From positions 1-42,149 of the IMG/VR virus record IMGVR_UViG_3300020193_000917: a DNA stretch of 42,149 nucleotides; one strand, given 5' to 3'. Source of the DNA: a virus. Of this stretch, positions 3,844 through 33,396 are shown piece by piece. The translations under genes were made by a program, and so were the position numbers. The first letter of the stretch is position 1; each line of letters opens with the position of its first letter. The notes under the pieces were generated by a model. That model saw only the letters and a program-made list of their open reading frames with translations, did not search any database and was not told the origin of the DNA.

Positions 3844-4026
3844 ATGAAACTATTACTTATCATTTGTGCAATTGCTATAGTCACTTTTATCCTAATGAAA
3901 AAAGGTAAGATTAAAGATGCTGATGGCAATAAAATTCCTGACGCTTTAGAAGATGCTGCCAAGGAAGTAAAAGAAGTAGCTAAAAAAGTTAAAAAGGCTG
4001 CTACTAAGAAGAAAGTTACAAAATAA
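3844..4026 (+). CDS. Small membrane-anchored lysine-rich protein
   Basis: 60 aa, family not recognised. An N-terminal hydrophobic helix (MKLLLIICAIAIVTFILM, residues 1-18) is followed by KKGKIKDADGNKIPDALED and a long Lys/Ala/Val amphipathic tail ending KKAATKKKVTK. The DADGNKIPD segment resembles a calcium-binding thrombospondin type 3-like loop, but this is weak. ATG 3844 is chosen because the ATATTTAT motif lies 16 nt upstream and the hydrophobic segment begins there. Probably an inner-membrane protein with a basic cytoplasmic tail. Confidence 0.6.
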   Translation: MKLLLIICAIAIVTFILMKKGKIKDADGNKIPDALEDAAKEVKEVAKKVKKAATKKKVTK

Positions 4027-4870: not shown

Positions 4871-6649
4871 ATGGCCGAAACACTTCTTAGCCCAGGAGTT
4901 TTCTTACAAGAAAACGATCTATCGCAAATAACCGCAGGACCTGTTGCAGCCGGTGCTGCTCTCATAGGTCCTACAGTAATTGGTTTAGTTAATATTCCTA
5001 CATTAGTAACATCATACTCACAGTACAAAGCTATTTTTGGTGCTGCGTTCGTATCTGGTGGTGCTAATTTTGAATATTTAACTTCTATTGCTGCACTTAA
5101 CTATTTTGAACAAGGAGGAGAATCCTTATTGGTTACTCGTGTAGCCTCTGGTTCTTATACCGCTGCTACAGCTTCTGTAGTAGGTCTTAATGGAACAGCA
5201 TCATTTACCTTAGACACTTTGTCTGTAGGTACAATAATGAACAACTTTGCTTCTGGTGCAGTAGCTCCATTTGCTTCAGGTTCTAATGGATCACTTCCTT
5301 CAGGTTCTGCAGCTAACGTTCGTTGGGAAGTTACAGGTGTAAATACTGGTTCTGGTGTGTTCAGCCTTGTTATCCGCCGTGGTGATGACTATAATAATAG
5401 CAAAACTATCTTAGAATCTTGGACTAATATGTCTTTAGATCCTAATCAGAATAACTATGTTGCTTATGTAATTGGAGATCAAACTCAAACAGTTGCTTTA
5501 GATTCAACAGGATACTATTACTTACAAACTACAGGTTCTTATAAAAATAATAGCTTATATGTACGTGTATCTTCTGTAGTACAGCCAACTCCTAGTTATT
5601 TCAACCAGACTGGTGTTGCTCAAAATCAATACACAAGTTCTATGCCAGCTCTTGGAACTGGTTCTTATCATGGATCTTTTGGTGGTGCTTCTGGAGTTAT
5701 CTTCGGTTCTTTTGGAAAAGCGGCAGTAAACATGTTTGAAAGTATCCCTAATGCAACTTCTGTAGTAACAACACCGTCTACTAATATTCAAGGTATACAC
5801 CCAGCTGACTATAATATTGCTATCAATCTTCTTGAGAATAAAGACGCATACGACTTTAATGTTATTTATGCACCAGGTTTAACTAGTAAGAATGCATCTT
5901 CTCAAATAGCTAGTCTTTTACTTTTAGCTCAAAATCGTGGTGATAATATCGCTGTAGTTGACATGGTTGGATACGGACAACAACTAAATACAGTAATTAG
6001 TGAAGCTGTAACTTATGATAATAGTTACGGTGCAACTTACTGGCCATGGGTACAAATTCGTTCTCGTGAAACCGGTAAAGTTAATTTTGTTCCAGCTTCT
6101 ACATTAATACCAGCTGTTTACGAATATAATGATAAAGTATCTGCAGAATGGTTCGCTCCAGCAGGTCTTAACCGCGGTTCACTTTCTACAGTGCTTCAGC
6201 CAGAAAGAAAGATCGGTGTAAATGATCGTAACCTTCTTTATCAAGGAAAGGTTAATCCAATTGCTACTTTCCCAGGTGTAGGCACAGTTATCTATGGTCA
6301 GAAAACACTTCAACAGAAGCCATCTGCACTTGATCGTGTAAATGTGCGTCGTTTATTGATTGCTCTTAAATCATTTATTGGTCAACTAGGTGAACAAATT
6401 GTGTTCGAACCAAATACTCAAGTAACTCGCAATAAATTCTTAAGCCAAGTTAACCCATATCTTGAGTCTGTACAACAACGTCAAGGTTTATATGCCTTCC
6501 AAGTTGTAATGGATGAAACTAATAATACACCAGATGTGGTAGATCGTAACAAATTAGTAGGTACAATTTATATACAACCAACAAAGACTGCTGAATTCAT
6601 ACAACTTGACTTTAACATTCTTCCAACTGGTACAACATTTGGTCAATAA
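4871..6649 (+). CDS. Contractile tail sheath protein (T4 gp18-like)
   Basis: Forms the contractile outer tube of the tail. The 592-aa length is close to T4 gp18 (659). Seen: the conserved sheath N-terminus with SPGVFLQE (residues 7-14) and the VAAGAALIGPTVIGLVNIPT strand region. A variable Gly/Ser-rich middle (about 90-290) corresponds to the surface-exposed inserted domains. The conserved C-terminal domain contains ALKSFIGQLGEQIVFEPNT and ends PTKTAEFIQLDFNILPTG, the arm that interlocks sheath subunits. It lies upstream of the tube gene as in other myoviruses, but a 266-aa gene is inserted between them. Confidence 0.93.
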   Translation: MAETLLSPGVFLQENDLSQITAGPVAAGAALIGPTVIGLVNIPTLVTSYSQYKAIFGAAFVSGGANFEYLTSIAALNYFEQGGESLLVTRVASGSYTAATASVVGLNGTASFTLDTLSVGTIMNNFASGAVAPFASGSNGSLPSGSAANVRWEVTGVNTGSGVFSLVIRRGDDYNNSKTILESWTNMSLDPNQNNYVAYVIGDQTQTVALDSTGYYYLQTTGSYKNNSLYVRVSSVVQPTPSYFNQTGVAQNQYTSSMPALGTGSYHGSFGGASGVIFGSFGKAAVNMFESIPNATSVVTTPSTNIQGIHPADYNIAINLLENKDAYDFNVIYAPGLTSKNASSQIASLLLLAQNRGDNIAVVDMVGYGQQLNTVISEAVTYDNSYGATYWPWVQIRSRETGKVNFVPASTLIPAVYEYNDKVSAEWFAPAGLNRGSLSTVLQPERKIGVNDRNLLYQGKVNPIATFPGVGTVIYGQKTLQQKPSALDRVNVRRLLIALKSFIGQLGEQIVFEPNTQVTRNKFLSQVNPYLESVQQRQGLYAFQVVMDETNNTPDVVDRNKLVGTIYIQPTKTAEFIQLDFNILPTGTTFGQ

Positions 6650-6666
6650 TATAAAATAAACAATAG

Positions 6667-7467
6667 ATGAACGATAATACAGTACTTAGAATTAAAGTCC
6701 CAGCTCACTTATACGAAAGTGTAAAAGAGCAGTTAACACTATCTGAAGCTAAGAAAGGTAAACACAATCTTGGTGCTGGTATGGAGATAGTTAAAGAAAA
6801 GAAAATGAAGGCTCCAAAACAAAGTATGAAGAAAGTAGATAAAGCAGAAGAGGCTGATTTTAAAAAAATTGAATCAGCATTATCAGCTGTAGAAAAATCA
6901 AAATTCCCTAACGTGGATTTCGATGAAATTGACAAAAGCGAAAAGTATAGTGGTTTATACTATTCACGTGGTACTGGCGAGCATGAAGGTAAAGAAGTAG
7001 ACGTAACTATCTACATCGATGGTAAAACTCTTGAAGTGGTAGATATTTTAGTAGAACAAGTTCAAGAAACTGAACAAGTTGAAGAAGGCTTAATGGATAT
7101 GCTTCGTTCAGTAAGCGATAAAGTTGCCTACGATATCTTTTTAGATACTCCTAAAGGAATGTCTAAAGAAGACAGAGCTAAAAATATACAAAGTTGTATT
7201 ACTGATGCAAATAATAAAAAGAAAACAGATCCTAAAATAGATAGAGACGATCTTATTGTTAACTGTTTAAGAGAAAAAGGATGGAAATTTGCATACGAAG
7301 GAAGTCAACCAGGTATGAGTGCTATGGGAGGTAAATGGGCCGAAGGTAAAAAAGACAGAACGATGGAAGAGTTGAAAAAGGCTAAAGACATGCTCGAAAT
7401 GAAAATCAAGAAAATGGAAGAGAGCCTTAATGAGAAGAAGCATAAAGAAGAAGACGAAGAACAATAA
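6667..7467 (+). CDS. Hypothetical protein inserted between sheath and tube
   Basis: 266 aa, no family recognised. Apparent regions: an N-terminal RIKVPAHLYESVKEQLTLSE segment of a type I associate with several marine-phage proteins; a Lys-rich linker; an alpha/beta part (about 60-130) with EGKEVDVTIYIDGKTLEVVD; a helical part with YDIFLDTPKGMSKEDRAKNI and one or two Cys; and a highly charged coiled coil at the C-terminus ending KKHKEEDEEQ. The unusual position between sheath and tube suggests a virion or assembly role, possibly binding the tail during assembly. Confidence 0.6.
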   Translation: MNDNTVLRIKVPAHLYESVKEQLTLSEAKKGKHNLGAGMEIVKEKKMKAPKQSMKKVDKAEEADFKKIESALSAVEKSKFPNVDFDEIDKSEKYSGLYYSRGTGEHEGKEVDVTIYIDGKTLEVVDILVEQVQETEQVEEGLMDMLRSVSDKVAYDIFLDTPKGMSKEDRAKNIQSCITDANNKKKTDPKIDRDDLIVNCLREKGWKFAYEGSQPGMSAMGGKWAEGKKDRTMEELKKAKDMLEMKIKKMEESLNEKKHKEEDEEQ

Positions 7468-7512: not shown

Positions 7513-7998
7513 ATGCCAGTATTGGACCCAAATGAAATAATGTTCACTGCGTTTGAACCTACAGTATCAAACCGCTTTATCATGTACATAGACGGAATTC
7601 CTTCTTACATGATCAAAAAGGCAGACGCTCCTGGTGTTACTTTAAATGAGATCAAGTTAGATCATATCAACGTTTACCGCAAAATCAAAGGTAAAGCTGA
7701 ATGGCGTGATTTAACATTATCTCTTTATAATCCAATCTCTCCATCTGGCCAACAAGCCGTGATTGAGTGGGTACGTCTACACCATGAATCTGTAACAGGC
7801 CGTAACGGCTACTCTGACTTTTACAAGAAAGACCTTAATTTGTCTATTTTAGGTCCTGTTGGTGATATCGTAAGTGAGTGGATCATCAAAGGTGCTTTTA
7901 TAAAAGAAGCAACTTTCGGCAGTTACGACTGGTCAACATCTGATCCAACAGAATTGACTATGTCTATAGGAATGGATTATGCAGTATTGAATTACTAA
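7513..7998 (+). CDS. Tail tube protein (T4 gp19-like)
   Basis: Builds the inner tail tube. The 161 aa matches T4 gp19 (163). Seen: the N-terminal SNRFIMYIDGIPSYMIKKAD strand pair, AWRDLTL-type strand (EWRDLTLSLYNPI), the helix QQAVIEWVRLHHESVTG, and the C-terminal KEATFGSYDWSTSDPTELTM beta hairpin typical of tube proteins. It has its own upstream motif and a strong terminator after it, so it can be expressed at high level as a single-gene unit. Confidence 0.92.
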   Translation: MPVLDPNEIMFTAFEPTVSNRFIMYIDGIPSYMIKKADAPGVTLNEIKLDHINVYRKIKGKAEWRDLTLSLYNPISPSGQQAVIEWVRLHHESVTGRNGYSDFYKKDLNLSILGPVGDIVSEWIIKGAFIKEATFGSYDWSTSDPTELTMSIGMDYAVLNY

Positions 7999-8099: not shown

Positions 8100-8867
8100 A
8101 TGAGCGAACAAAAGTTTACGGTACCTACAGAAATGATCGACCTTCCAAGTAAAGGTCTTATCTACCCAAAAGAAAACCCACTATCATCAGGTAAAGTTGA
8201 AATGAAGTACATGACGGCAAAAGAGGAAGACATCCTTACAAATGTCAACCTACTACGTCAGGGCCTCGCCATCGAGAAGATGCTCAAGAGCCTAATCAAA
8301 TCATCTATCAACTACGAAGACTTAACCTTAGGTGACAGGAATGGTTTGCTGATAGCCGCCAGAATTCTAGCCTATGGTAAGGATTACTCTTTTAAGTATC
8401 TTAACCCAAATACTAATGAAGAAGAGAAAGTGGAAACAGATCTACAAAACTTAAAGTATAAAGAGATTGATTGGTCTAAGCTTGCTAATAAAAACGAGTT
8501 TATCTTTACTCTTCCTTATTCTAAGAATGAAGTGACGTTCAAGATCTTGACTGTAACTGATGACAAGAAAATTGATGAAGAGATAAAAGGTATGAAGAAG
8601 ATAGTAGGTCAAGAAGCAGGTATACTGTCCACAAGACTTAAACATCAAATTATATCAGTAAATGGTGACTATTCTGTTAAAACTATTCGCGACTTTATCG
8701 ATCAAGGATACCTCCTATCAAGAGACTCAATCGAGCTCAGAAAGTATATTGCAGAAGTAACACCAGATATTGATACTACAATAACATTTACTTTAAAAGA
8801 CTCTACAGAGATACAAACAACCCTTCCTATGGGTGCAGAGTTCTTTTTTCCCGGGAGCGGACTATAG
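8100..8867 (+). CDS. T4 gp26-like baseplate hub/tail assembly protein
   Basis: 255 aa. The N-terminal LPSKGLIYPKENPLSSGKVE and MKYMTAKEEDILTN stretch matches the T4_baseplate family (gp26-like), which behaves like a tail-assembly factor. The rest is helix plus a beta part ending TLPMGAEFFFPGSGL. The frame ends at TAG 8865 inside a T-rich stretch (TTC TTT TTT CCC). A second frame continues there as SFFPGADYRSAFMTECFE, so part of the ribosomes may shift and make a longer fusion. Placement immediately upstream of the tape measure supports a chaperone role. Confidence 0.75.
   Translation: MSEQKFTVPTEMIDLPSKGLIYPKENPLSSGKVEMKYMTAKEEDILTNVNLLRQGLAIEKMLKSLIKSSINYEDLTLGDRNGLLIAARILAYGKDYSFKYLNPNTNEEEKVETDLQNLKYKEIDWSKLANKNEFIFTLPYSKNEVTFKILTVTDDKKIDEEIKGMKKIVGQEAGILSTRLKHQIISVNGDYSVKTIRDFIDQGYLLSRDSIELRKYIAEVTPDIDTTITFTLKDSTEIQTTLPMGAEFFFPGSGL
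8844..8856 (+). promoter_or_regulatory. Possible translational frameshift site in the gp26-like gene
   Basis: The end of the gp26-like frame reads TTC TTT TTT CCC GGG. A -2 slip on the six T residues (8844-8849) or a +1 slip at CCC-G would move ribosomes into the frame of the next gene, which is open from at least 8833 through the TAG of the first gene to 9132. Both frames encode FFPG here. Inferred from sequence only. Confidence 0.4.
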
Positions 8868-8877
8868 GTCCGCATTC

Positions 8878-9132
8878 ATGACCGAATGCTTTGAACTCAC
8901 TTATCACGGAGGCGGCGGTTTTAGTTGGACCGAGGTGTGGAATATGCCTGTAACTACTAGACGTTTTAACCTCAAGAAGATTAACCAATACCTTGAGAAG
9001 GTAGAAGAGATGCGTAATGAAGGCCGGCAAAAAGTTACAGAGAAAACAGATATGTCTAAAGTTAAACTGCCTGAATTTATGAAAAAGGCAGAAGAGCCTA
9101 CCTTTGTATCTAAGGTAAAAACCAAAAGGTAA
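8878..9132 (+). CDS. Small tail-assembly partner downstream of gp26-like protein
   Basis: At least 84 aa. The core is ECFELTYHGGGGFSWTEVWN, then MPVTTRRFNLKKINQYLEK, then a charged tail. The MPxxxR helix pattern resembles the short second components of phage tail-assembly chaperone pairs, and the position fits T4 gp51 only by neighbourhood. ATG 8878 lies 10 nt after the previous stop. The frame is open further upstream, with GTG at 8833 as an alternative start, and YRSAF before the ATG looks protein-like. The real product may be a frameshift fusion with the gp26-like protein. Confidence 0.6.
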   Translation: MTECFELTYHGGGGFSWTEVWNMPVTTRRFNLKKINQYLEKVEEMRNEGRQKVTEKTDMSKVKLPEFMKKAEEPTFVSKVKTKR

Positions 9133-9160: not shown

Positions 9161-11407
9161 ATGGCTAACGATAATCAAAATACAGGACCGGATAAAGGCC
9201 AAATTAGGCAAACTGTTTCCGATATAAAGGATATTAAGAGAGAGCAGGGAGACTTTAATGATACCATTAAAGAATCAATAAATTTACTTAAGAATTTAGA
9301 CAGGTCTTATGAAAGAATAGAAGCGCGTTTAGAAACTCTCAATAGATCAAGTATTAATGTTAAAGAGATAAATCAAGAGCTATCTAAAGCTAAACAAAAA
9401 GAGTTTATTACATCTAAACAATTATCAGATCTAGAAAAGAAGCTAGAAGGAGATTCTAAAAATAGAGTAGATAACTATTTGAAATCTCAAAACCTAGTAA
9501 AGTCATTTGAAGATAAACTCCTAGAGGCTAGACAAAAAGGAGAAATCTCGGGGATAGAAATAGCAGAAAAAAGATTAGATAGGGCTCTAGTATTAAATGA
9601 AAGACACAAATCTCTTTTAGATGTTCAAGAGGCAGAATTAATAGCTTTAAGAGAAGCTGACAGAATAGCTAAAGAAGGAATTAAAATAGGAGAAGAAAAG
9701 CTAAAGAAAGAAAAAGAGCTTAGAAAAGAAGTTGGTTATAGTGGAGCAGCTCTTGGTTTATTTGCTAAAAAACTAGGGCTAGGAAATGATGCTTATGAAC
9801 AAATGGTTGAAAAGGCCAGAGATCTTAATAAAGAAGGAAAAAAACTTACATTTGCAGATAAGTTAGGTGCATTAGGAAAAGCAGCCGGAGCAGGTTTAAA
9901 AGAAACTGTAAAAGATCCTTTAACTGCTATCCCTATGACTGTGGGTGCTATAGGAGGTATTGTTATTGCTTTAAAATCTGTATTCGATTACATACTAGGT
10001 ATACAAGATAAAACTGTCAAGTTTGCAAGAGCTATGAACCTTTCAACAGGTGAAGCTCGAGCAATTAAAAAGGAGTTTGCTAGTCTTAGCATTTCTTCTG
10101 GAGACTTATTCATCGATAGTCAAAAGATGGTTGAGTCTCAAATGGAGTTTGTAGATGCATTAGGTGTAACTAATAGACTTACTAATGAACAGTTAGCTAC
10201 TAATATTAAACTAAGAGATATAGCAGGCCTTGACTTAGAAACAAGAAAAGGTATAGTTGAAGCTTCAACATTAACAGGTAAGTCATCAGAAAGTATAACT
10301 AAATCTGTTTTATCACAAGTAGTAGGTTTAAAACAAGCAACAGGAATTGGTTTTAGTTATCAGAAGATACTTAAAGAAGCTTCTAATTTAGGTGGCTATT
10401 TAGGATTATCTTTTGCAAAATACCCAGCGCAATTAACTAAATCATTAGTTACTGTTAAGTCAATGGGCTTAGAACTAAAGCAACTTGATTCAATAGCAGA
10501 TTCTTTCTTAGACTTTGAGTCTTCAATATCAAAACAATTTGAAGCACAACTATTAACTGGTAAAGATATTAATCTAAATAAAGCTCGTGAAGCTTTTTTG
10601 AATAACGATCTTGCCACAGCAGCTTCTGAAATAACAAGACAAGTTGGATCTGCTAATGACTTCTTGAAGTTAAATCGTATACAAGCTGATTCTCTTGCTT
10701 CTGCATTTGGTATGACAAGAGATCAAATGGGAGATATGTTGAAGCAACAAGAGTTATTAAGTAAATTAGGGGCAAAAGATCTTAAAGATGCGCAAGCAAA
10801 AGTGCAAGCATTAAAAGCGCAAGGTAAATCTAAAGAAGAGATCATTAAACTTACTGGTGAAGAAGCATATCAAAACTTAACTAATGCGTCTCTTCAAGAA
10901 AAGATTGGCGCTTTCATGGAGAAGATAAAACAATCAATAGCCGACTTTGTTGAACATTCTGGTATTATAGGAAAGATAGAAAACTTTTTTAAGTTTATCT
11001 CTGAGCCAAAAAACATCCAAGCTATTATAATAAAAATAAGAGATATATTTGCACAGGTCGTAGACATAGTTGCTACCATTGCTTCAGGAGTTGTTGGAGT
11101 ATTAGACTTTTTTGGTGCAATATCAGATGAAAAAGCAGATAGTATACAAGCATTTCTTGAAGGAACCGGTGATAAAATTAGATCTTTAGGCGGAGACTTT
11201 GGAGGCGTAAGTGTTGAAAATAATGCTGCTGCACCAACTACAACTGGTACAAATACTAATGTTCAAGATAATATGAAAATGGCAAGAGTGCCTAAAAATG
11301 AAATGATTAATGTAAATGTAACTACATATGTGGTTGATACTAAGCGCGATGCTGAAGCAAGGGCAAGAAGAAATCCAGATCTTGATAATCAAACGGGGGC
11401 TCAATAA
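9161..11407 (+). CDS. Tail tape measure-like protein
   Basis: 748 aa. Residues 1-200 are long charged coiled coil. A hydrophobic, Gly/Ala-rich segment AIPMTVGAIGGIVIALKSVF follows (about 256-275), then an extended helical region with many KxxG and QxxL repeats. A second hydrophobic stretch IIIKIRDIFAQVVDIVATIA comes near residue 620, followed by a low-complexity Asn/Thr tail. This architecture and the position right after a gp26-like/partner pair identify the length-determining tail protein, functionally equal to T4 gp29. It is short for a tape measure, which implies a tail near 100 nm by the usual length rule (rough). Confidence 0.78.
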   Translation: MANDNQNTGPDKGQIRQTVSDIKDIKREQGDFNDTIKESINLLKNLDRSYERIEARLETLNRSSINVKEINQELSKAKQKEFITSKQLSDLEKKLEGDSKNRVDNYLKSQNLVKSFEDKLLEARQKGEISGIEIAEKRLDRALVLNERHKSLLDVQEAELIALREADRIAKEGIKIGEEKLKKEKELRKEVGYSGAALGLFAKKLGLGNDAYEQMVEKARDLNKEGKKLTFADKLGALGKAAGAGLKETVKDPLTAIPMTVGAIGGIVIALKSVFDYILGIQDKTVKFARAMNLSTGEARAIKKEFASLSISSGDLFIDSQKMVESQMEFVDALGVTNRLTNEQLATNIKLRDIAGLDLETRKGIVEASTLTGKSSESITKSVLSQVVGLKQATGIGFSYQKILKEASNLGGYLGLSFAKYPAQLTKSLVTVKSMGLELKQLDSIADSFLDFESSISKQFEAQLLTGKDINLNKAREAFLNNDLATAASEITRQVGSANDFLKLNRIQADSLASAFGMTRDQMGDMLKQQELLSKLGAKDLKDAQAKVQALKAQGKSKEEIIKLTGEEAYQNLTNASLQEKIGAFMEKIKQSIADFVEHSGIIGKIENFFKFISEPKNIQAIIIKIRDIFAQVVDIVATIASGVVGVLDFFGAISDEKADSIQAFLEGTGDKIRSLGGDFGGVSVENNAAAPTTTGTNTNVQDNMKMARVPKNEMINVNVTTYVVDTKRDAEARARRNPDLDNQTGAQ

Positions 11408-25635: not shown

Positions 25636-27546
25636 ATGGAATTAAAGGACGTGCAAACCCCTTGGGGAGAAATTGGTTATATTACATTTAAAAGAACGTA
25701 TGCAAGACGAATAAAAGAAGACGATTCTAATTCCAAGACAGAAGAGTTTTGGCAAGTTGTACAGCGTGAACTTGATGCTTCTGATAAGCAACTTAAAGTA
25801 GGTTTTACTGAAGAAGAGAAAAAAAGGTATGCTGAGATGAGACTCAATTTAAAGTTTTCTACAGCCGGCCGTTTTATGTGGCAGCTTGGCACTAAAACTG
25901 TAGATAAGCTAGGCCTTCCGTCACTACAAAACTGCGCATTTGTTACAGTTAATAATCCTATTAGACCTTTTACATGGGCATTTGAAATGTTGATGCTAGG
26001 CTCAGGTGTCGGATACAATATTCAGAAGCACAATGTTTATCAACTACCTAAAGTAAAAGGAAAAGTAAAGATAGAACGTAAAGATGTAAAAGACGCTGAT
26101 TTCATTGTGCCAGATACAAGAGAAGGTTGGGTAAAACTACTTGGTAAAGTATTGAAAGCCCACTTCTATTCTGGAGAAAGTTTTACATATTCCACGATGT
26201 TAATCAGATCTAAAGGAGCTACTATTAAAGGATTCGGTGGCACAGCATCTGGCCCAGAAGATCTTTGTTGGGGTATTAGTGAGATCAACAAGATATTAAA
26301 TAGTCGTGCTAATAAGAAGCTAAGACCAATCGACTGCTTAGACATTATGAATATTATTGGTATGATAGTTGTAGCAGGAAATGTTAGACGTTCTGCACAA
26401 ATATCTATTGGTGATTATGATGATATTGAGTATTTAAAAGCCAAGCGTTGGGATTTCGGTTCTATTCCTAACTGGAGATCCATGAGTAATAACTCAATAG
26501 TAGCTCCAGAAAATACTAATGATTTACTTCCTGAATTCTGGGAAACTTATAATCAAGGTGAGCCTTATGGTCTTATAAACTTAGAATTATCTAAAACAGT
26601 TGGTCGTACAGGTGAAACACAATATCCTGATCCAGAAGTAGAAGGATTCAATCCTTGTGCTGAGCAATCACTTTCTAATTTTGAAACATGTTGCCTAGCT
26701 GAGGTATATCTGCCTAATATTAATACATATGATGAGTTATTAGAAGCTATTACGTTTACATATCGTATGAACAAACACTCTCTTAATTTACATTGTTTTT
26801 TAAAAGAAACAGAAAATGTTGTTCATAAAAATATGAGAATGGGAATTGGCATGACAGGTATTTTACAAGCCACAGAAGAACAACGTAGTTGGTTAAAAGA
26901 TGCTTACGTTTGGCTTCGTGAGTATGACAAAAACTACTCAGCTAAGCACAAATTCCCAGTGAGTATTAAATTAACTACTGTCAAACCATCTGGCACCTTA
27001 AGTTTGTTAGCAGGCGTAACTCCAGGTGTGCATCCAAACCCAGCAGGCCCATATTATATTCGTCGTGTAAGAATATCATCACAATCACCATTAGTAGATG
27101 TTTGCCGTCAACACGGTTACCACATTGAATACCAAATAAAGTTTGATGGTTCAGAAGATAAGTCTACAATGGTAATATCATTCCCTTGTAAACTACCTCT
27201 AACTACACCTGTTGCTGCCGATTATGACTGGAAAACACAGATGGACATGGTATGTCGTATGCAAGCTGAGTGGAGTGACAATTCTGTAAGTTGTACTGTA
27301 TATTATAAAAAAGAAGACATAGAAGATATCAAGAAGTACTTAAAAGAGCACTTTAGACATAAAATGAAGACGGTATCATTTTTGTTGTATCATGGTCACG
27401 GTTTTGATCAAGCGCCGTACGAGACTATCACAGAAACACAGTATCTTGAAATGATAAAGAGTGTTAAACCAATTACGTCTGTTGAAGTAAAAGAATCAGA
27501 AATGGAACTTATTGAGTGTGAATATGGAAAATGCCCGGTTAAGTAA
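25636..27546 (+). CDS. nrdJ: Class II (adenosylcobalamin-dependent) ribonucleotide reductase
   Basis: 636 aa. Converts ribonucleotides to deoxyribonucleotides using vitamin B12 coenzyme. Seen: N-terminal Cys in LQNCAFVTV (C100), the active-site NPCAEQSL loop (C341, E343), GSGVGYNIQKHNV and SGPEDLCWGISEINKI near the substrate site, TVKPSGTLSLLAGVTPGVHP, and a C-terminal CEYGKC pair (C628/C633, CX4C) for re-reduction. This matches the monomeric RTPR type rather than NrdA/NrdB. The thioredoxin at 41471 could reduce the CX4C tail. The host must supply or import B12. Confidence 0.88.
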   Translation: MELKDVQTPWGEIGYITFKRTYARRIKEDDSNSKTEEFWQVVQRELDASDKQLKVGFTEEEKKRYAEMRLNLKFSTAGRFMWQLGTKTVDKLGLPSLQNCAFVTVNNPIRPFTWAFEMLMLGSGVGYNIQKHNVYQLPKVKGKVKIERKDVKDADFIVPDTREGWVKLLGKVLKAHFYSGESFTYSTMLIRSKGATIKGFGGTASGPEDLCWGISEINKILNSRANKKLRPIDCLDIMNIIGMIVVAGNVRRSAQISIGDYDDIEYLKAKRWDFGSIPNWRSMSNNSIVAPENTNDLLPEFWETYNQGEPYGLINLELSKTVGRTGETQYPDPEVEGFNPCAEQSLSNFETCCLAEVYLPNINTYDELLEAITFTYRMNKHSLNLHCFLKETENVVHKNMRMGIGMTGILQATEEQRSWLKDAYVWLREYDKNYSAKHKFPVSIKLTTVKPSGTLSLLAGVTPGVHPNPAGPYYIRRVRISSQSPLVDVCRQHGYHIEYQIKFDGSEDKSTMVISFPCKLPLTTPVAADYDWKTQMDMVCRMQAEWSDNSVSCTVYYKKEDIEDIKKYLKEHFRHKMKTVSFLLYHGHGFDQAPYETITETQYLEMIKSVKPITSVEVKESEMELIECEYGKCPVK

Positions 27547-28192: not shown

Positions 28193-30496
28193 ATGAATAA
28201 AAGTTATGTTACGGTAAGGTCTCTTGATACACTAAAAGAGATGGTTGATCACATTAAGTCGCACGACCTTATTTCATTTGACACAGAAACAAACAGCTTA
28301 AATCCTCGTAAAGGTAAGATTATTGGCTTCTCAGTATCAGCTGAAGTTGGTAAAGGCTTTTATATGCCTACTATGATCTGTGTTGATGGTGAATTACAAG
28401 ACGCTTATATTAATGAAAAATTATGTCATGACATTGCAAAGAAGACTATTTCGCTTTTAATTGGAAAAAAGCTTGTGATGCACAACGCATCATTTGATTG
28501 TAGATTTGTTAAATGCTTTTATGGAATAGACTTGCTGTCTAGTTTATATGTCGATACACTATTATTAGTACATACAGTACGTGAAGAAGGTGCAGGATTT
28601 ATGGCTGGTTCATCATTTGGCTTAAAAGATATTGCTAAGACTATTCAAAAAGATATCGGTCTAGATATTGAGCAAGCTGCAAATGAAGAACAGTTGAAGA
28701 TGAAAGAGTCTATTAAGAATAACGGTGGATCAATTACACGTGAAAATTATGAGATATGGAAAGCAGATCTTGAACTATTATCAGAGTATGCATCAGCAGA
28801 TACTGACTTGACTCTTAGAATATATTACTACTTCATGAATACACTAAAAGAAGAAGGACTGGAGAAGTTTTTCTTTGAAGACGAGGTAATGCCTGTCTAT
28901 AAAGAGGTAACTATTCCTATGGAGATGGTTGGTATGAAGATAGACATTGATCTTATAAATACTAGTCGTATTAAAATTATAGAAGAGCTACAAAAGTATT
29001 CTGATCTTGTTATCAAAGAGTTGTTGAAGCATGAGTCTGTACGTGCTTGGGTTATTATGAAAGCACTAGATGCATATCCACCTAATAACAAAGGTACATT
29101 TGCTCAAGAGCTTTGTCGTGAAGCTAACCTAGATCTTGAAGTGTCTAATAAAACACAAAAGCACAGCTTAACACAATCAGCTTTGATCAGACTTCCTGAA
29201 TCACCATACAAACATTTTTTATTACGTGGTGATCAATCTGTACTTGATAAAGATTTTATAACTAAGATTAGTCTTAGACTATGGAAAGAAGATAATGATG
29301 GACAATTCTTTAATATACAATCTAAAGATCAGTTAGGAGAAATTGCTTTCGGTGTACTTGGTATTAAATTTAAAGCCACTACAAAGACAGGTAAGCCACA
29401 GTTTGATGATGATGCTGTGCAATCTATTGCTAACAAGTTTAATTGGGCAAAGAACTTACGTATCTACAACCGACTACTAAAGATTAAATCAACATACATG
29501 GACCGTTTTCTTGACAATCAAGAAGATGGCCGATACTACTTCTATTACAAACAACATGGTACTGTGTCTGGTCGTTACGGTTCAGACGCTCAACAGCTAC
29601 CTAGACCTAAAGAAGAAGGAGATGATGAGCCTATTGTTATAGAGTACAACAACTTAATTCGTAAATTCTTTATATCAGAAGAACATAACATATTTATTGA
29701 CTGTGACTATGAATCACTTGAGCCGCATGCATTTGCTCACGTATCAGGTGACGAAGGCTTGAAAGATATTTTTCGTAATAACTGGGACTTCTATTCTACT
29801 ATTGCAATCAAAACAGAAGGGCTTACTCAATATTCACCAGACAAAAATGTGCCTAACTTCTTACGTAAGCTAGAACCTAAACTTAGAAATAAAGCTAAAG
29901 CGTACGCACTAGGTATACCTTATGGTATGGGAGCTTATGCTCTTGGTATGAATTTAGGAATATCAACAAAAGATGCTAAAAAACTAGTTGATGGTTATTT
30001 GAATGGATTTCCTGAACTCAAGAAGTGGATGGAAAGATCTAAGAAACAGGCTAAAGAGCAAGGTTTTATTAAAACTCAAGTTGGTCGTATTCGCCACTTA
30101 CCAAAAGTAAAAGCTATCTACGATAAGATAGGTGACGATCTACTTAATTGGAATATGAAGAGAGCAATGGAACGTCAGTATGGAGTCGAAAGAATCAAGA
30201 ACTTAAGTCGTGACTATACCAATGGACTTAATAATGCATGTAATGTTCAGATTCAAGGCCTAGCGGCTTCAATTGTAAACCGTGCAGCTTTAGCTATTAA
30301 CCGTAAGTTTCAACAGATGGGTATTAATGGTTGGGTATGTGCACAAATCCATGACCAGTTGGTAATTGAGGTAGAACACTCAAGAGCAGAAGAAGCGGCC
30401 AGGATCGTCCAGGATTTGATGGAGAACACAACCAAGCTTAGTATCTCATTGAAAGCGCCACCAGCTCTAGCCAGTAATCTCAAAGACGGACATTAA
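28193..30496 (+). CDS. polA: Family A DNA polymerase with 3'-5' exonuclease
   Basis: 767 aa replicative polymerase. The exonuclease domain begins with FDTETNSLNP (D30, E32) and continues with MHNASFDCRFV and YASADTDLTLRIYYY. Polymerase motif A is DYESLEPHAFAH (Asp505, Glu510), motif B RNKAKAYALGIPYGMG (R565, K569, Y577-G578), motif C IHDQLVIEVEH (H720-D721-Q722; the usual Glu is Gln). The residue matching E. coli Phe762 is Leu573. No 5' nuclease domain is fused; that activity is the separate gene at 22859. A family A enzyme replaces the family B gp43 of T4. Confidence 0.92.
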   Translation: MNKSYVTVRSLDTLKEMVDHIKSHDLISFDTETNSLNPRKGKIIGFSVSAEVGKGFYMPTMICVDGELQDAYINEKLCHDIAKKTISLLIGKKLVMHNASFDCRFVKCFYGIDLLSSLYVDTLLLVHTVREEGAGFMAGSSFGLKDIAKTIQKDIGLDIEQAANEEQLKMKESIKNNGGSITRENYEIWKADLELLSEYASADTDLTLRIYYYFMNTLKEEGLEKFFFEDEVMPVYKEVTIPMEMVGMKIDIDLINTSRIKIIEELQKYSDLVIKELLKHESVRAWVIMKALDAYPPNNKGTFAQELCREANLDLEVSNKTQKHSLTQSALIRLPESPYKHFLLRGDQSVLDKDFITKISLRLWKEDNDGQFFNIQSKDQLGEIAFGVLGIKFKATTKTGKPQFDDDAVQSIANKFNWAKNLRIYNRLLKIKSTYMDRFLDNQEDGRYYFYYKQHGTVSGRYGSDAQQLPRPKEEGDDEPIVIEYNNLIRKFFISEEHNIFIDCDYESLEPHAFAHVSGDEGLKDIFRNNWDFYSTIAIKTEGLTQYSPDKNVPNFLRKLEPKLRNKAKAYALGIPYGMGAYALGMNLGISTKDAKKLVDGYLNGFPELKKWMERSKKQAKEQGFIKTQVGRIRHLPKVKAIYDKIGDDLLNWNMKRAMERQYGVERIKNLSRDYTNGLNNACNVQIQGLAASIVNRAALAINRKFQQMGINGWVCAQIHDQLVIEVEHSRAEEAARIVQDLMENTTKLSISLKAPPALASNLKDGH

Positions 30497-31755: not shown

Positions 31756-33396
31756 ATGGGTACAACTAAAAGTTTTTTTGGAATCGAACTTAAAGAAAAA
31801 CTGTTACAAGGTATAGAGAAGTTAAACAACTCTGTATCATCAACATTAGGGCCAGGTGGCCGTACTGTTTTGATTCGTGAACAAAATGGTGAAGTTAAAG
31901 TTACAAAAGATGGTGTAACTGTAGCTAAAGCTTTTCATAAATTAGAAGACGATATCGAAGACCTAGGTGCACAACTTGTTAAGCAAGTTAGTATCAAGAG
32001 TGCAAATGAAGCAGGTGATGGTACTACCACATCTACTTTGATTGCGACTGAGCTTGTTAAGCAAGGTCTGAAAGAGATTCGTCAAGGTGTAAACGCTGTA
32101 GAAATTAAGAATGAGATCGACAACATTGTGAATCAAATTGTTGAAGAGATCAAAGAGTTGGCTACAGAAGTATCATCAGAAGAGCAGATTAAACAAGTTG
32201 CAACTATATCAGGTAACAACGATTCAGAGGTTGGGAACTTGATAGCCGAGGCTCTTGATAAAGTAGGGCGTGATGGTATTGTCACAATTGAAGAGTCTAA
32301 GTCAGGCGAAACTACTCTTGAAGTTGTAGAAGGTATGCAATTTGATCGTGGTTACAAATCACCTTATTTTGTAACAAACAACACGACAATGCAAGCTGTG
32401 CTTGACAATCCTTATATCCTACTTTATGATGGCCGTATTTCTACTGCACAAGAACTACTGCAAGTACTAACTAAGGCTAACTCTGAGAATAAATCGATAT
32501 TAATTATTGCTGAAGATATTGGAGACGAAGCTTTAGCAACACTTATTGTAAACAAGATGCGTGGGATCGTGCAAGTATGTGCAGTAAAAGCACCAGACTT
32601 TGGAGAGCGCAAAACTCTTATCTTAGAAGACATTGCTGTCTTGACTGGTGGTCAAGTGATATCTAAAGACAAAGGCTTGAAGTTAGATAAACTAACTACA
32701 CAACAACTATCACAGTTTTTAGGTACAACTAGACTTGTTACTGTATCTAAAGAAGAGACTACTATCATTGATGGTAAAGGTGATGAGAAAGCAATCGCTA
32801 ATCGTGCAATAGAAATCAAAAATCAAATTGATCAAGCTACTTCATTTTATGAGAAAGAGAAGTTACAAGAGAGACTTGGTAAGTTGGTCGGTGGTGTTGC
32901 TATCATCTCTGTTGGAGGTAATAGTGATATTGAGATTAGAGAAAAAAAATATCGTGTAGAAGATGCTTTATTTGCAACTAAAGCAGCATTAGCCGACGGT
33001 ATTGTTCCAGGCGGTGGTGTAGCATTGTTAAGAGCTGCAAAGTTAGGCAATCTTAGTTTTGATAATAAAGTAGATTTTAATGATAACTCTAACATCGTAA
33101 CTGCTAGAATTATATTGAAAGCAGCACTCGTTGCACCTTTCATCAAAATATTATCAAATGCTGGTATTGATAACTGGTGGGAATTTATTCCAAATGAAGG
33201 TGAAGTGTATGACGTTAAGAATTATGCAACTGTCAATGCATTAGAAGCAGGTATCATTGACCCAGCAAAAGTAGTGATAACAGCCCTCAAGAATGCATCT
33301 TCTGTTGCTGGCACAATCTTAACCACAGAATCAGTTGTGTTCGAAAAGAAAGATAAGGACGAGAAAGGACAAGATCATATGATGAGTATGATGTAA
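31756..33396 (+). CDS. groEL: GroEL chaperonin
   Basis: 546 aa, essentially full length (E. coli 548). Seen: nucleotide motif GDGTTT (87-92) and GPGGRTV (32-38), apical segment FDRGYKSPYFVTNNTTM, the equatorial return GGVAIISVGGNSDIEIREKK and the RVEDALFATKAALADGIVPG loop with the catalytic-type Asp. The C-terminal tail is DHMMSMM instead of the Gly-Gly-Met repeats. All core ATPase residues I can place are kept, so it is likely active. A complete phage GroEL is uncommon and suggests that this phage folds a large or difficult protein. Confidence 0.93.
   Translation: MGTTKSFFGIELKEKLLQGIEKLNNSVSSTLGPGGRTVLIREQNGEVKVTKDGVTVAKAFHKLEDDIEDLGAQLVKQVSIKSANEAGDGTTTSTLIATELVKQGLKEIRQGVNAVEIKNEIDNIVNQIVEEIKELATEVSSEEQIKQVATISGNNDSEVGNLIAEALDKVGRDGIVTIEESKSGETTLEVVEGMQFDRGYKSPYFVTNNTTMQAVLDNPYILLYDGRISTAQELLQVLTKANSENKSILIIAEDIGDEALATLIVNKMRGIVQVCAVKAPDFGERKTLILEDIAVLTGGQVISKDKGLKLDKLTTQQLSQFLGTTRLVTVSKEETTIIDGKGDEKAIANRAIEIKNQIDQATSFYEKEKLQERLGKLVGGVAIISVGGNSDIEIREKKYRVEDALFATKAALADGIVPGGGVALLRAAKLGNLSFDNKVDFNDNSNIVTARIILKAALVAPFIKILSNAGIDNWWEFIPNEGEVYDVKNYATVNALEAGIIDPAKVVITALKNASSVAGTILTTESVVFEKKDKDEKGQDHMMSMM

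Follow-up and report, generated by a model that had tools for sequence, protein, structure and literature searches.

The tail genes of phage P2 are ordered FI-FII-E-E'-T and those of phage lambda V-G-T-H. Both phages make a short and a frameshifted long protein (E/E+E' in P2, G/GT in lambda) between the tail tube and tape-measure genes, and both use a -1 frameshift. T4 itself has PF12322 domains in two genes, 26 and 51, and the abstract of Vladimirov et al. reportedly assigns both as chaperones. T4 gp26 and gp51 have been listed as hub assembly chaperones (PMC3004832), and a 2016 review treated T4 as an exception to tail-chaperone frameshifting (PMC5009743). According to papers that cite their work (PMC10885494, PMC12846349), Vladimirov, Gautam & Davidson (2022, Virology 566:9-15) identified the tail-assembly chaperones of T4-like phages, and the relevant passage of PMC12846349 describes poly-T -1 signals in these phages. 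As far as these descriptions go, tail-chaperone frameshifting in T4-like phages is, as a general idea, already published (Vladimirov 2022). Frameshifting by +1 is known from other genes. UUU_Ynn is a +1-prone sequence, found as UUU_CGU in influenza A PA-X, and a rare CCC codon is used in tail genes of the Listeria phages PSA, A118 and A500 (CCC_UGA) and in E. coli pheL (CCC_UGA), where the preceding Phe matters (PMC5009743). Bacillus phage 0305phi8-36 has a two-gene tail chaperonin that represents a frameshift-free version (PMC2147016).

We analyzed a window of 42,149 nucleotides, the whole stretch of DNA taken from virus record IMGVR_UViG_3300020193_000917. Its tail genes lie on the + strand and comprise a sheath gene (4871-6649; PF17482 5e-14, phrog_23 6e-70), one gene of no known family, a gp19-like tail tube gene (7513-7998; phrog_4542 1.4e-21), two coding regions termed A and B, and a tape-measure gene (9161-11407), assigned by its position and by a homologue in Flavobacterium phage immuto that is annotated as tail tape measure protein. 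A (8100-8867) codes for 255 aa of the T4 gp26/gp51 family and is the putative short tail-assembly chaperone (TAC-N). B (8854-9132), recognized by its open +1 frame and its relatives, would add 92 aa after the slip as the C-terminal domain of a long chaperone (TAC-C). The A-B pair is located between the tail tube and tape-measure genes, and the order sheath-tube-A-B-tape measure is that of the P2 and lambda chaperones. The computed frames, slip site, conservation, family and position make it highly probable that A and B serve a contractile-tailed phage as its tail-assembly chaperones and that the long form arises by +1 frameshifting. Between the sheath and tube genes, positions 6667-7467 code for a Lys/Glu-rich 266-aa protein to which no family was assigned. 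A sulfotransferase-family gene (997-1818; PF13469, 1e-18) lies upstream of the tail genes.

We compared A to the T4 proteins. A matched PF12322 at 6e-9 (36.3 bits, cut-off 24.5) and phrog_150, a baseplate hub family, at 9e-13. The structures of A and B were predicted separately. The AlphaFold2 model of A had a pLDDT of 93, and its Foldseek matches were models of viral baseplate hub, hub-assembly chaperone and gp26 proteins. T4 gp26 and gp51 both score above the PF12322 cut-off and are paralogues (hhalign 99%). A matched a combined T4-like profile at 97% in hhalign when cyanophage and Gram-positive bridging relatives were included, and gave no match to a small gp26 or gp51 alignment directly, without those relatives. 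On these sequence comparisons, A is assigned to PF12322 with T4 gp26 and gp51, and T4-like chaperones share both its family and its proposed role. The initial annotation had placed T4 gp26-type proteins among the tail-assembly chaperones, a placement that was already published; many more sequences now support the assignment of gp26 and gp51 as chaperones. T4 carries two PF12322 copies, whereas the window and each of six other T4-like and Gram-positive records that we searched carry one; members of the family in which the genes overlap have a single copy. The Pfam model missed Flavobacterium phage immuto and Microcystis phage Mel-JY01, in which a profile search found one copy each. No PDB match to A was found by fold or by sequence, so its likeness to lambda gpG is one of position and organisation only. 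Compared with the lambda and P2 proteins, A has a larger domain and a different predicted fold, with no detectable sequence relation.

B is less readily linked to known families. B alone gave no confident match in Pfam and PHROG searches, and a fold search had no significant hit (phage Moogle's tape measure chaperone came up at E 0.37). Members of the B family matched phrog_634, a hub-assembly catalyst (8 of 59 members), and phrog_32580, a tail assembly chaperone, all weakly. A combined B profile matched the T4-like C-terminal domain (hhalign 76%, E 2.4e-5), a weaker link than that of A. In T4-like cyanophage, Aeromonas and Pseudomonas phages, another frame adds to gp26 a domain with homology to the C-terminus of T4 gp51 (98%, E 1e-12), an arrangement comparable to A-B. 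These extensions are reached by -1 (two of the three at U UUU UUC), whereas the window would use +1 at UUU_Y. In the three records concerned (Synechococcus, Aeromonas phiAS5 and Pseudomonas Cygsa01 phages; L294, L295 and L296), this -1 frame domain is annotated merely as an ORF of 41-58 aa.

We examined the overlap between A and B in relatives of the window. We gathered 80 close relatives (A identity 70-91%) and some 180 that are more distant, using Flavobacterium, Microcystis, metagenomic and Gram-positive phages as queries for the latter, and scored the +1 ORF as present if it reached at least 150 nt past the stop codon of A. The initial annotation had read A as ending in EFFFPGSGL-stop, with a +1/-2 frame running through the same bases, and the sequence is as it described. 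Frame A ends ATG GGT GCA GAG TTC TTT TTT CCC GGG AGC GGA CTA TAG (MGAEFFFPGSGL*), with TTC TTT TTT CCC G at 8841-8853. The +1 frame stays open across 8797-9132; over the terminal bases of A it reads ..SSFFPGADYRSAFMTECFE.. Counting duplicates, 177 loci could be scored, and all except 8 had B in the +1 frame (169 distinct). Conservation of the two frames, of the slip site and of the location ahead of the tape measure extends beyond the window's clade to phages of Flavobacterium, Microcystis, Bacillus, Listeria and Streptococcus. These results confirm that the A/B overlap is real and far beyond chance, and on sequence they support the frameshift fusion of the gp26-like protein with its partner before the tape measure that the initial annotation had suggested.

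An alternative is that B is a separate small protein, started by re-initiation after the stop codon of A at AUG 8878 (or GTG 8833), with no fusion. The first ATG of frame B (8878-8880) is kept in 51 of 51 loci of the window's clade, and relatives with A and B as separate genes use an own start for B. The coding of B nevertheless appears to extend upstream of this Met. A motif, F-x-x-x-[DE]-Y-[RK], is conserved there, inside the first predicted helix; its Tyr-Arg codons (8863-8868) overlap the TAG stop of A (8865-8867). The Y[RK] pair was present in 157 of 158 distinct loci, and in 64 of the 65 where the stop of A precedes the Tyr. The pair is thus kept after A has stopped, where no overlap constraint acts. 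No ATG, GTG or TTG occurs between the upstream stop and the conserved Tyr in 79 of 158 loci (no ATG in 112), most relatives lack GTG 8833, and most of the distant relatives have L, H or F in place of Met 8878. B was modelled as helical (residues 6-22, 29-33 and 37-68; pLDDT >90 over residues 11-60). Met 8878 is residue 13 of B, in the middle of predicted helix 1, and a start there would remove FFPGADYR and half of that helix. Separately encoded B proteins always rebuild the FPGxEYR motif that the frameshift makes, with an independent start followed by ..P[LM][FL]P[GN]..YR, which supports coding of B upstream of Met 8878. Homologues with separate genes, named in the initial annotation as evidence against fusion, do exist, yet their B proteins speak for the longer coding region. 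Together with a freezing of slip codons that is confined to the overlapping forms, these observations make a separate B very improbable. In the immuto record (L001), positions 3851-3961 are annotated as a 36-aa hypothetical protein that equals the last 36 codons of B; the annotation covers only this tail because B has no ATG before it. B has been missed or truncated in public genomes.

Fusion of A to B requires a slip within the overlap, and the window offers UUU UUU CCC G at 8844-8853 (UUU_C at 8847-8850, CCC_G at 8850-8853). All 168 distinct frameshift-type loci carry UUU_Y in frame among the final 11 codons of A, inside the overlap; elsewhere in A, just 5.2% of 11-codon stretches contain one. 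Re-pairing of tRNA-Phe by +1 (UUU to UUY) is possible in every one of them. The sites are of three types. The window's clade has UUY UUU CCC N (51 distinct loci). A Flavobacterium, Microcystis and marine group (n=112) has UUU UUU UGG, UUU CUU UGG, UUU CUA UGG or UUC UUU UGG, with UAC instead of UGG at the end in two cases. The third type, in a few phages of Gram-positive type and others, is UUU CGU, UUU CAC, UUU CUA or UUU UUU. The UUU_Y element shared by all loci is that of influenza A PA-X, whose UUU_CGU occurs in two Gram-positive-type relatives, although here a bacterial ribosome would translate a phage gene. Like pheL, the window has Phe before the Pro codon; it differs from pheL and the Listeria phages in that CCC follows a UUU that is itself able to slip.

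The CCC codon itself is conserved within the clade. CCC accounts for 9 of the 425 Pro codons in the window, and other conserved prolines of A in the clade are mostly CCA, CCT or CCG. CCC occupies the slip codon in all 51 clade loci, the slip site reads CCC TAA or CCC TAG in some relatives, and synonymous-codon entropy is 0 at Pro251 compared with 0.7-1.75 bits at the other conserved prolines of A. The synonymous codons of A are frozen solely at the slip site. The count of 51 is not circular because, among clade loci with an open +1 frame, only L059 and L060 lack CCC, and both give B its own GTG start.

The initial annotation had allowed either a -2 slip on the six T or a +1 slip at CCC-G. A -2 shift on the six-U run, as in phage Mu, would add one extra Phe and arrive in the same frame as +1; T6 and T7 runs are common, and the shift is possible in 127 of 168 loci. 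The other 41 loci keep B where a -2 slip is impossible (TTC TTT CCC, TTT CTT TGG and TTT CTA TGG, for example), so cognate re-pairing 2 nt upstream is not available in all members, and a -2 shift would leave the freezing of CCC unexplained. The +1 slip fits best because of these 41 loci, and we regard the -2 shift as very improbable, about as much so as a separately started B. A mutational or assembly frameshift in a once-continuous gene, with a practically negligible chance, is already refuted by the conservation of the same overlap, with differing slip motifs, in 169 distinct loci from many assemblies and isolates.

We propose that the long chaperone is made by +1 slippage as follows. Most ribosomes would terminate at 8865 and release A (TAC-N, 255 aa). 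A minority would slip by +1 while a rare codon in the A site awaits its tRNA, through tRNA-Phe on UUU (UUU_C to UUC) or tRNA-Pro on CCC (CCC_G to CCG), and produce A-B (TAC-NC, 343 aa, ..EFFFP-GADYRSAFMTE..). Slips at UUU_C and CCC_G yield an identical protein, so the sequence is equally consistent with either codon. By analogy with lambda G/GT, A may coat the tape measure and B may recruit the tail tube. The slip rate, binding partners and stoichiometry in this scheme are inferred. A hairpin (GCGGAC-TATAG-GTCCGC, 8857-8873) lies directly 3' of the slip site and occurs in near relatives only. Across 30 relatives, 62.8% of cells were paired; the hairpin is missing from about half of the clade and is probably non-essential. 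An RNA stimulator after the slip site was rejected on this absence, and the search for a consensus structure with covariation there found none.

In eleven of the relatives sampled, A and B are separate genes. Four of these (L028, L038, L075 and L283) have an ORF of about 185 aa inserted between the two; that of L028 has a NUMOD1 domain (1e-5) and looks GIY-YIG-like by eye. The other seven (L055, L059, L273, L276, L281, L284 and L287) are split without an inserted ORF. UUU_CCC is retained in 3 of the 11, and the slip codons are relaxed. On a tree of A built with the trait columns removed, the fused or split state changes 8 times, of which at least 5 are forced by starred branches; sister pairs that differ in state include L283/L080, L028/L025 and L038/L023. 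Split-type contigs (83-183 kb, perhaps partial) contain one A and one B each, so TAC-C would be unfused there unless the stop is read through. Since A and B are separate in some relatives, covalent fusion is not required in every phage. The split relatives resemble Bacillus phage 0305phi8-36 in lacking a frameshift, but the long protein of that phage repeats the N-domain, whereas B of the split relatives lacks the A domain.

It is possible, though we would lean slightly against it, that the long chaperone alternates between fusion by frameshift and a pair of unfused genes, that homing-endonuclease-like insertions at the slip site drive the switch, and that TAC-N and TAC-C work as separate polypeptides with covalent fusion dispensable. 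If true, this would be a third arrangement beside lambda G/GT and T4 26/51. The alternation of fused and split forms is a natural experiment that asks if G and T have to be linked. The large set of gp26-type genes with a plainly conserved frameshift contrasts with the description of T4 as an exception (PMC5009743). Judged against the cited descriptions of Vladimirov 2022, a +1 UUU_Y site throughout the family and repeated fission into unfused genes look like additions to that work. UUU_Y is also a compact +1 slip motif that annotation tools could use.

Several further features were observed. The inserts of L028, L038, L075 and L283 are homing-endonuclease-like ORFs at the frameshift site, and the B that follows starts independently; three of these four ORFs have a start that overlaps or almost overlaps the stop of A (TAATG). 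A group I intron joining A and B in these relatives was considered and rejected, with no Rfam hit at gathering thresholds. In the tightly spaced split forms L276, L284, L287 and L055, one TAA and gaps of 6-9 nt separate A from a B in the same frame, so read-through of the stop could still yield a fusion, although the shared frame could be chance. In the split form L273 (repeated in L275, L277, L278, L280, L285 and L286), the B frame stays open for about 50 codons further upstream, overlapping the end of A in the -1 phase, and UUUUUUCCC is still present. Elsewhere in the window, a B12-dependent (class II) ribonucleotide reductase gene (25636-27546) has a family A DNA polymerase gene (28193-30496) as the next large gene, and positions 31756-33396 code for a phage-encoded Cpn60/TCP-1 chaperonin (PF00118, 7e-56).
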